From Bacteroidia bacterium (GTDB lineage: Bacteria; Bacteroidota; Bacteroidia; J057): a DNA stretch of 64,000 bases. This document shows, in pieces, positions 44,598 through 46,572 of the stretch; within the stretch, counting starts at the first letter, position 1, and every line of letters starts with the position of its first letter. The stretch is from NCBI GenBank assembly GCA_033391075.1, contig JAWPMV010000001.1, positions 2,232,001 to 2,296,000 of the forward strand, in the 5' to 3' direction. A program made the translations under genes and the position numbers. Under the pieces are notes generated by a model that was given only the letters and a program-made list of their open reading frames with translations, had not been told where the DNA came from and searched no databases.

Positions 44598-45482
44598 TTA
44601 ATAGCCAAAATCTCCCAGATGGAAATCGCTGTTTTTCCAGCCTGAGGATACTTTAACGTAGAGTTTGAGAAAAACCTTTTGTCCCAGAAATTTTTCAATA
44701 TCCTTTCTGGCAAGTGATCCAATCAGTTTCAGCATACTTCCCCCTTTGCCTATGACAATTCCTTTCTGGGTTTTCCTTTCGACATGGATGGTTGCATGGA
44801 TACGCGTTAGATTATCTTCTTCTTCAAACTCTTCTATAACTACTTCTGTGCTATATGGAATTTCATCCTTGAGCCTTTCAAACAACTTCTCTCGGATCAT
44901 CTCTGCGACGAAGAACCTTTCGGGTCTATCCGACACCTGATCTTTATCAAAAAAGGGAGGGCCTTTCGGAAGGTATTTTATAATCAGGGATTTTAGTAAA
45001 TCTACATTCATCCCATTCAGGGCTGAAACCGGGACGGCTTCTTCAAATTTAACTTTAGCCGCCAATTCCTGCATACGTGCAAAAGCTACATCCTGCTTCA
45101 CTGCATCCACTTTGTTCAGCACCAGCATTTTGGGGATTTCAGTTTTCTCTGCCAGTTTGATCAGGTCCTCTTCCGGGAAACTTTCATCTACCGCAATCAG
45201 GAGAATAATCAGATCGGCATCTTCGAGGGCATTGCCTACAAAACCCATCATGCGTTGCTGAAGGGCATATTTAGGTCGAATCAATCCAGGCGTATCTGAA
45301 TATACTACCTGGTAATCTTCGCCGCTATCAATCCCGAAAATACGGTGCCGGGTCGTCTGAGCCTTAGCAGTAGTAATGCTCAGCTTTCGACCCAGAATAC
45401 GATTTAGTAGGGTGGACTTGCCGGCATTGGGCTTGCCAATGATGGATACAAATCCTGATTTATGATTTTCCGGGATATTCAA
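44598..45482 (-). CDS. era: GTPase Era
   Basis: A 294-residue GTPase for 16S rRNA and small-subunit maturation. G1 is IIGKPNAGKSTLLN, the following TTAKAQTTRHRI is the G2 region, G3 is SDTPGLI and G4 LVLNKVD. The KH domain has VIGKGGSMLKLIG in the C-terminal third. The reading frame starts at TTG (45482), and no in-frame ATG is available before the G1 motif, so TTG is probably the real start. It is a single gene, divergent from the tRNA locus. Confidence 0.93.
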   Translation of the reverse strand: MNIPENHKSGFVSIIGKPNAGKSTLLNRILGRKLSITTAKAQTTRHRIFGIDSGEDYQVVYSDTPGLIRPKYALQQRMMGFVGNALEDADLIILLIAVDESFPEEDLIKLAEKTEIPKMLVLNKVDAVKQDVAFARMQELAAKVKFEEAVPVSALNGMNVDLLKSLIIKYLPKGPPFFDKDQVSDRPERFFVAEMIREKLFERLKDEIPYSTEVVIEEFEEEDNLTRIHATIHVERKTQKGIVIGKGGSMLKLIGSLARKDIEKFLGQKVFLKLYVKVSSGWKNSDFHLGDFGY

Positions 45483-45750: not shown

Positions 45751-46097
45751 TGCGGGGTGGAGCAGTTGGTAGCTCGTCGGGCTCAAGTAAGGAAATTGTA
45801 CTGAAATGCTAAGCCACACTTAGGATTTCGCAAAGGTACAACTTGCAAGGGCTGCATAGTCAGAAATGATTATGTGAATTCTGTCAAATTCGGGGAAGGC
45901 TGTAGTGTGCTAATCCCGAGCCAAGCTTCTCAGAGTATCGAGAAGAAGGTGTAGAGACTTGACGGCAGATATCCTCCTCCGAAAGGAAAGGATAAAGAGA
46001 AAGTCCAGCCTACAAATCTGCGTGAGCAGAGCAGTGAAAACTGTAGATAGGAAGCATAACCCGAAGGTCACTGGTTCGAGTCCAGTCCCCGCTACTA
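45751..46097 (+). tRNA. Initiator tRNA-fMet(CAU), interrupted by a group I intron
   Basis: Exon 1 is 45751-45783 and exon 2 46055-46097. The joined exons fold as a tRNA: acceptor GCGGGG/CCCCGC, D arm GAGC/GCTC, anticodon loop CTCATAA on stem TCGGG/CCCGA, T arm ACTGG-TTCGAGT-CCAGT. Initiator identity is clear from three G:C pairs at the base of the anticodon stem, an A11:U24 pair and an unpaired first base (U1 opposite U72). The anticodon CAU is restored only when the intron is removed between U33 and C34. The 3' end reads CTA, not CCA, so the terminal CCA must be completed enzymatically. If this is the only initiator tRNA gene, splicing is essential. A terminator follows at 46102. Confidence 0.93.
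45784..46054 (+). ncRNA. Group I intron (IC3-like) in tRNA-fMet
   Basis: A 271-nt intron; exon 1 ends in U and the intron ends in G, as the group I rules require. Helices can be placed: P2 CATAGTCA/TGATTATG (45855-45874, GAAA loop), P3 TCTGTC/GGCAGA (45880-45885, 45964-45969), P4 TCGGG/CCCGA (45890-45894, 45915-45919), P6 CTTCTC/GAGAAG (45926-45945), P7 GACTT/AAGTC (45956-45960, 46001-46005), P8 TATCCT/AGGATA (45970-45994) and P9 with two GNRA hairpins (46009-46046). Core strings such as TGTCAAATTCGG, GAGCCAAGCTTC and GTGTAGAGACTTGACGGC closely resemble the Azoarcus tRNA-Ile intron. No reading frame of size lies within it. The guide sequence for P1 is less certain. Confidence 0.92.
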
Positions 46098-46101
46098 AGC
46101 A

Positions 46102-46135
46102 AAAGTCCTTATTTCATTTGAAATAAGGACTTTTT
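46102..46135 (+). terminator. Strong terminator after the split tRNA gene
   Basis: AAAGTCCTTATTTC (46102-46115) and GAAATAAGGACTTT (46120-46133) form a 14-bp perfect stem with loop ATTT and a T-run. It separates the tRNA transcript from the endonuclease gene that begins at 46150. Confidence 0.92.
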
Positions 46136-46149
46136 GTATTTTGTGACCC

Positions 46150-46572
46150 ATGAAAAACACAAAACTCAAAGGCGACATCGCCGAGCAGAGGCTTATTCTT
46201 GAAGCTTTGAAAAGAGGTTGGGGCGTTTCTATACCTCTTGGCGATCGGCTCCCTTATGATCTCATTCTTGATATTAATTCCACACTCCTAAAAATACAGA
46301 TCAAATCTGCCTGGTTTGATCAGGTCAAAGGGAATTATGTAATTGATGTTCGAAGGAGTCTTACAAATCAAAGAACGATTATCCATCGTCCTTATTCATT
46401 ACAAGATTTTGACTTTGCGATCATTTACCTGGATGAAATAGACATATTTTATATTCTTCCCACAAAGGCTTTTTTGTCTTATAAAAGTGAAATCCATTTT
46501 GTCGAAGCTGAGAAAAGGCAAAGAAAGCCTCAATCAGCAAAATATAGGGAAGCCTGGCATTTGTTAATGTGA
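46150..46572 (+). CDS. PD-(D/E)XK homing endonuclease of the I-Ssp6803I type, freestanding
   Basis: A 140-residue protein. The catalytic pattern is E12 (KGDIAEQ), D37 (PYDLILD) and Q50-x-K52 (KIQIKSAW). The glutamine in place of the usual Asp/Glu of PD-(D/E)XK nucleases is the feature known from I-Ssp6803I, the endonuclease of the Synechocystis initiator-tRNA intron, and spacing is nearly the same as I recall it. Other shared-looking parts are VRRSLTNQRT, YSLQDFDFAIIYL and FYILPTKAFLSY. The gene starts 53 bases after the end of the tRNA, behind a terminator, and is outside the intron. A promoter-like TATTTTG lies at 46137-46143. Family membership is well supported; cleavage of the intronless tRNA-fMet gene is inferred. 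Confidence 0.87.
   Translation: MKNTKLKGDIAEQRLILEALKRGWGVSIPLGDRLPYDLILDINSTLLKIQIKSAWFDQVKGNYVIDVRRSLTNQRTIIHRPYSLQDFDFAIIYLDEIDIFYILPTKAFLSYKSEIHFVEAEKRQRKPQSAKYREAWHLLM

Follow-up and report, generated by a model that had tools for sequence, protein, structure and literature searches.

A freestanding I-Ssp6803I-family endonuclease gene beside an intron-split initiator tRNA gene, a probable two-part homing unit on a bacterial chromosome

The homing endonuclease I-Ssp6803I, whose gene lies in the group I intron of the Synechocystis tRNA-fMet gene, cuts the intronless form. In PMC1995217 it is the PD-(D/E)XK entry and is called the first representative, and an excerpt of PMC3943268 counts the PD-(D/E)xK family among six. 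The tRNA-fMet gene of Nodularia spumigena CCY9414 is described as intron free, unlike that of some other cyanobacteria, in the accessible part of PMC3610870. A different arrangement, collaborative or trans homing, has been described from work on two phages (section 12 of a 2014 review, PMC3984707): an intron without an ORF is paired with a separate endonuclease whose target is the intron insertion site. The same review also names invasion of an intron by a freestanding endonuclease as one way for mobile introns to arise. Passages of PMC4853749 and PMC6293099 contain nothing on loci in which a freestanding endonuclease gene accompanies a split tRNA gene. The open-licence PMC literature, as far as its text was accessible, reports no copies outside the intron at tRNA-fMet; the primary I-Ssp6803I papers lie outside that coverage, and an earlier mention is possible.

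We analyzed a 64,000-nucleotide stretch of a Bacteroidia genome (positions 2,232,001 to 2,296,000 of contig JAWPMV010000001.1, assembly GCA_033391075.1; here called the window) that contains a tRNA-fMet gene split on the forward strand. The 5' exon (45751 to 45783), assigned from the sequence, ends at U33 (..GGGCT), and the 3' exon (46055 to 46094) begins with CATAACCC and does not encode CCA. Between them lies an ORF-less group I intron of 271 nt (45784 to 46054, forward strand), supported by Rfam RF00028, by comparison with loci that carry the endonuclease gene inside the intron, and by folding. The Rfam match (Intron_gpI, 45833 to 46024) scored 58.6 bits against a gathering score of 50 and was the only RF00028 match at E ≤ 0.001 in the whole genome. 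In group I introns a U precedes the 5' splice site and a G closes the intron, and the ends found here, ..GGGCT and ..GGAAG, agree with this rule. No ORF of 80 amino acids or more overlaps the intron; a short hairpin stands shortly 3' of the 5' exon, where introns of the inside type hold the endonuclease. ARAGORN reported zero tRNAs in the window, in line with what a split gene would give. Self-splicing of the intron is likely, since a search allowing up to 3 mismatches found no intronless tRNA-fMet site in this genome. The tRNA gene adjoins a gene for an Era-like GTPase with MMR_HSR1 and KH domains (44598 to 45482); an era-like gene also flanks the tRNA-fMet locus of Arcicella, on the opposite side and in the other orientation.

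Downstream of the tRNA gene, on the same strand, the sequence and the fold of 45751 to 46140 place a terminator-like hairpin with a T-run (46101 to 46135). Past it, 55 nt after tRNA position 73, starts the ORF of a 140-residue protein (46150 to 46572, forward strand) that has no detectable intron-derived tail. The product matched Pfam PF11645 (PDDEXK_5) with an E value of 2.8e-45 and 154.2 bits against a cut-off of 26.1, and this family was detected once in the genome. It was 58% identical to PDB entry 2ost over nearly its whole length (phmmer E 3.5e-55). Its predicted model (pLDDT 90) gave a Foldseek query TM of 0.92 to 2ost_A, and the best query TM outside the 2ost chains, among the 50 matches listed, was 0.52. 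All 50 aligned sequences, that of the window included, share E12, D37, Q50 and K52; 2ost carries Q at the position of E12, which we take to be a catalytic mutation. The ORF thus encodes an I-Ssp6803I homolog, a freestanding rather than intron-encoded member of the family. An earlier note, made from the letters of this locus, had named the enzyme type, the residues E12, D37 and Q50-x-K52, the position beside rather than inside the intron and the intervening terminator; all of these are borne out, its spacing of 53 bp differing from ours by where the tRNA end is set.

The enzyme has family, fold and catalytic residues in common with I-Ssp6803I. The target logic proposed in that note also finds support, since the joined exons of the window are identical over 23 bp to the site of Synechocystis salina, whose endonuclease gene is intronic (L083). 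Exact matches to this 23-bp site were found at 34 of 38 loci with an outside gene and 19 of 40 with an inside gene (L012 and L082 uncounted). In contrast to I-Ssp6803I, the gene of the window lies outside the intron and past the tRNA terminator, with the hairpin in its place. In pairing an ORF-less intron with a separate endonuclease whose predicted target is the insertion site, the locus resembles the collaborative homing of phages (PMC3984707). It differs in being on a bacterial chromosome, in a tRNA gene and with a PD-(D/E)XK enzyme, and in that close relatives of the enzyme occur within introns of this kind as well.

Our scan of named genomes recovered 139 relatives, and the best 80 of these were analyzed, which is a sample and no census. 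Within these 80 loci, the gene lay inside the tRNA-fMet intron in 40, downstream of an intron-split tRNA-fMet on the same strand in 37, upstream of one in 1 (L023) and displaced from one in 2 (L047 and L054). The downstream genes, of which 30 of 37 are from cyanobacteria and 7 from Bacteroidota, started 67 to 147 nt past the matched part of the 3' exon in 32 cases and 247 to 2099 nt past it in 5. Inside copies came from many phyla, as named in the records, and largely from metagenome assemblies. Plasmid records yielded zero matches.

L047 and L054 are displaced downstream copies. In genome G476, the split tRNA and the endonuclease gene are on one contig, 8.8 kb apart, separated by 8.7 kb of DNA that carries a gene for a tyrosine-type integrase and has a 14-bp repeat of the tRNA 3' end at either border; from the start of the second repeat to the endonuclease gene it is 92 nt. 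In G473, the split tRNA (L193) and the gene (L047, behind a copy of the tRNA 3' end) are on different contigs, and we infer that an inserted element parted them as in G476. Elements inserted at the 3' end of tRNA-fMet and parting it from the endonuclease were observed at L210 (G476), L193, L196 and L047. Such insertions, and the fact that tRNA genes are common insertion sites, are what an unrelated nuclease that came to rest beside a tRNA by chance would lead one to expect. Against such a chance neighbor, the family is that of the intronic enzyme, and 38 outside copies, counting that of the window, are known from Bacteroidota and cyanobacteria, 33 of them beginning no more than 147 nt past the matched part of the 3' exon; this recurrence excludes the explanation, to which we leave a negligible probability. 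The suggestion that homologs would be found near initiator tRNA genes thus held in the best 80 of the 139 relatives.

The genus Arcicella offers natural empty sites. The intron is present in three of its eight genomes, and all three have the endonuclease gene (in G473 on another contig). Among the five intronless genomes, three (L194, L197 and L198) have era, an era-like GTPase gene by Pfam, directly behind the tRNA and no endonuclease gene there; G786 has none in the 4.7 kb up to the contig end behind an inserted element, and the contig of G785 ends too early to judge. Both parts or neither were therefore present in 6 of 6 judgeable genomes (3 and 3, with G785 and G786 undecided), absence of the gene being judged at the tRNA locus. 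Compared with the empty sites, L191 and L192 carry 262 extra bp in the anticodon loop, plus another insert between the tRNA terminator and era. Homology to era resumes at +551 or +582 at these loci and at +104 to +109 at the empty sites, so intron and endonuclease gene are two insertions. Pairwise BLAST identities of rpoB, compared for 5 of the 8 genomes, put G450 (both parts) at 94.3% to G784 (neither) and at 88.6% and 89.7% to the carriers G449 and G473; in a multiple alignment whose common columns took in flanks of G473 without a match, G450 was still nearest G784. From the rpoB pattern and the empty sites, both parts were gained or lost between close species, and joint loss could account for the pattern as well as joint gain. 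The comparison of related genomes for presence and absence proposed earlier thus found the two parts paired in all 6 judgeable genomes out of the 8 from Arcicella.

If the intron shields the tRNA-fMet gene of the host from the endonuclease, intact targets should be rare where the gene is present. An intronless tRNA-fMet site with up to 3 mismatches occurred in 0 of 50 genomes bearing the gene (those of 40 outside-type loci and of 10 of the 40 inside-type loci), many of which are drafts whose assembly may miss a tRNA copy. The single match in this search was a different tRNA by its anticodon. Four copies on viral contigs, which form one group in the endonuclease tree (100/89), adjoin intronless tRNA-Met genes whose anticodon stems deviate from the site at 5 to 8 of 24 positions. 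At L092, L094 and L095, the viral endonuclease ORF appears, by eye, to terminate inside the 5' end of the next tRNA-Met gene. A further 21 phage records had a PDDEXK_5 match, at about 30 to 44% identity and mostly over part of the protein. The six of these that were examined are homologous and freestanding near tRNAs, like the gene of the window, adjoining tRNA genes or lying within 140 nt of them; unlike in the window, the tRNAs are intronless and the proteins distant. These six genes (L185 to L190) are in or near tRNA clusters, and four are annotated as hypothetical or with another function.

The viral and phage genes lend some weight to an endonuclease that homes by itself beside tRNA-fMet, the intron being unrelated, having arrived first and having made the site safe. 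We regard this as very unlikely, given that no intact site was found in the 50 cellular genomes with the gene and that all three Arcicella intron carriers also hold it. Other tRNAs have family members as well. At L007 and L009 (Bacteroidota), PDDEXK_5 genes lie in apparent introns of a tRNA, apparently tRNA-Arg(TCT) by eye, and these two loci gave no Rfam group I match over threshold; at L177, L178 and L182 (cyanobacteria), distant PDDEXK_5 proteins with a C-terminal extension are encoded beside intronless tRNA-Arg(TCT).

The two parts do not always stay together. Among relatives of the window genome, 31 of 39 matched the tRNA core pattern, 29 as intronless genes and 2 with an intron junction. 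The family of this genome, with 12 members, includes 8 intronless members, 2 with the intron (G002 and G010) and 2 without a match, and PDDEXK_5 was found in 0 of the 12. In their exons, G002 and G010 depart from the pattern seen in the rest of the family, which may reflect co-conversion. Another family member, G003 (L107), has seven tandem intronless tRNA-fMet copies spaced by about 113 bp.

In a cyanobacterial order with 291 genomes, the endonuclease profile matched 24. All 16 matches with E < 1e-50, at least 6 of them in genomes already among the best 80 loci, accompanied an intron-split tRNA-fMet, 5 lying within its intron and 11 downstream; three of the 16 were damaged, one by a stop and two by N-terminal truncation. 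The other matches comprised three remnants, one with an intron (G620) and two near an intronless tRNA (G575 and G543), and five distant family members. Among the matches listed, the intron junction was present in at least 29 genomes (G618 is ambiguous), and 22 or 23 of 29 lacked any match to the endonuclease. The locus of G575 is 88 to 89% identical in its flanks to the intact one of G606, the intron is exactly missing, and about 40 codons of the gene are left. The remnants of G575 and G543 fit decay, and intron and gene can part.

Placing the labels inside and outside on the endonuclease tree (87 rows) requires 8 and 9 changes, of which at least 3 and at least 5 are forced by well-supported branches; the intron tree (82 rows) requires 12 for each label, at least 5 of them forced. 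The gene has thus switched between inside and outside. The two trees are congruent only in part. Because intron-only genomes exist and the trees differ in places, intron and endonuclease gene also travel or are lost separately. The earlier idea that the tRNA gene, its intron and the endonuclease gene are transferred together as a single block is not established by these data, given this partial congruence and the two same-family genomes with an intron and no endonuclease gene.

A single clade of outside copies, a group named after the tree had been seen, was rejected (p-AU 0.019). A set of 26 cyanobacterial outside copies, mostly Nostocales, forms one clade (97/84, endonuclease tree). We built a profile of the DNA 3' of inside genes, which at a threshold of E 10 had matches immediately 3' of the gene in 14 of the 26, all in reading register and 3 with E < 0.01; it matched 0 of 15 other outside loci behind the gene, and 5 weak matches fell elsewhere in the 41 outside loci. 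Conversely, a profile made from the 26 outside loci recovered 18 of 42 inside loci at E ≤ 1 (best 3.5e-7), and each of these matches fell no more than 3 bases from the corresponding offset. Decayed intron core encodes tails such as ..SPVQLGEAGF. Because that core is part of the ribozyme, the Nostocales-clade outside genes must have escaped from an intron. Both this origin of the Nostocales-clade layout and the wide occurrence of the split layout go beyond what was claimed earlier from one locus. Many apparent endonuclease remnants in the introns of outside loci were discarded as trivial, since intronic ORFs run into the ribozyme core.

These fossils raise the question of whether outside genes in general are stranded escapees or relics that began inside an intron, were placed behind the tRNA through illegitimate recombination and are now merely inherited along with it. 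Truncated and remnant copies exist, and 3 of 87 domains have an internal stop, two of them in outside copies (L064 and L077). We nevertheless consider it unlikely that the copies are relics. Median dN/dS was 0.093 over 206 pairs of Nostocales-clade outside copies and 0.08 in two Arcicella-group pairs; these figures come from other lineages, the window copy being too diverged for dN/dS, and the outside copies of these two lineages are under purifying selection. In addition, the catalytic residues are invariant in all 50 sequences aligned, and the window copy has no detectable intron tail. The same holds for the six other Bacteroidota outside copies, in which no intron fossil was detectable behind the gene and tails are 0 to 7 residues long; L018 has a short GGGCTGC stretch that is a possible fossil. 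These seven copies may never have been intronic. For the window lineage, a freestanding state before any intronic one is plausible, because the viral and phage copies are freestanding beside intronless tRNAs, although the root of the tree is weak. An outgroup-rooted tree (51 of the 87 endonuclease rows and 11 rows of distant PDDEXK_5 proteins) that placed the window basal (94/74) was not relied on, its outgroup branches being very long and carrying a warning of joined long branches.

Over the relic and lone-homing readings, the preferred explanation is that intron and endonuclease probably form a two-part homing unit, a chromosomal form of collaborative homing in which the intron shields the target and the nuclease converts intronless alleles. 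In the simplest mechanism, intronless alleles would be cut and then repaired with the split allele as template. The endonuclease would recognize the anticodon region of intronless initiator tRNA genes, as I-Ssp6803I does, and would cut incoming or recipient intronless alleles. Repair of the break from the intron-bearing allele would copy the intron and flanking DNA, and because the endonuclease gene starts only 55 nt behind the tRNA, the same conversion tract could include it. By splitting the recognition site, the intron would protect the only tRNA-fMet gene detected in the host, and self-splicing would keep the split tRNA functional. Cleavage by the window protein, repair-driven transfer, co-transfer of both parts and splicing are inferred steps of this model.

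A broader history can be offered tentatively, and it is somewhat less probable than not. One lineage may have cycled from freestanding genes beside viral tRNAs to partners of a chromosomal intron (the window and six Bacteroidota), to intron-encoded genes (many phyla) and, in a Nostocales clade, to escape marked by an intron-fossil C-terminal tail; the window would then be a living pre-intronic stage. With numerous natural copies both within and beside the intron, empty sites within one genus and a fossil that fixes one direction of switching, this chromosomal tRNA system would make the question of how selfish endonucleases and self-splicing introns merged into a single mobile element testable in ordinary bacteria.
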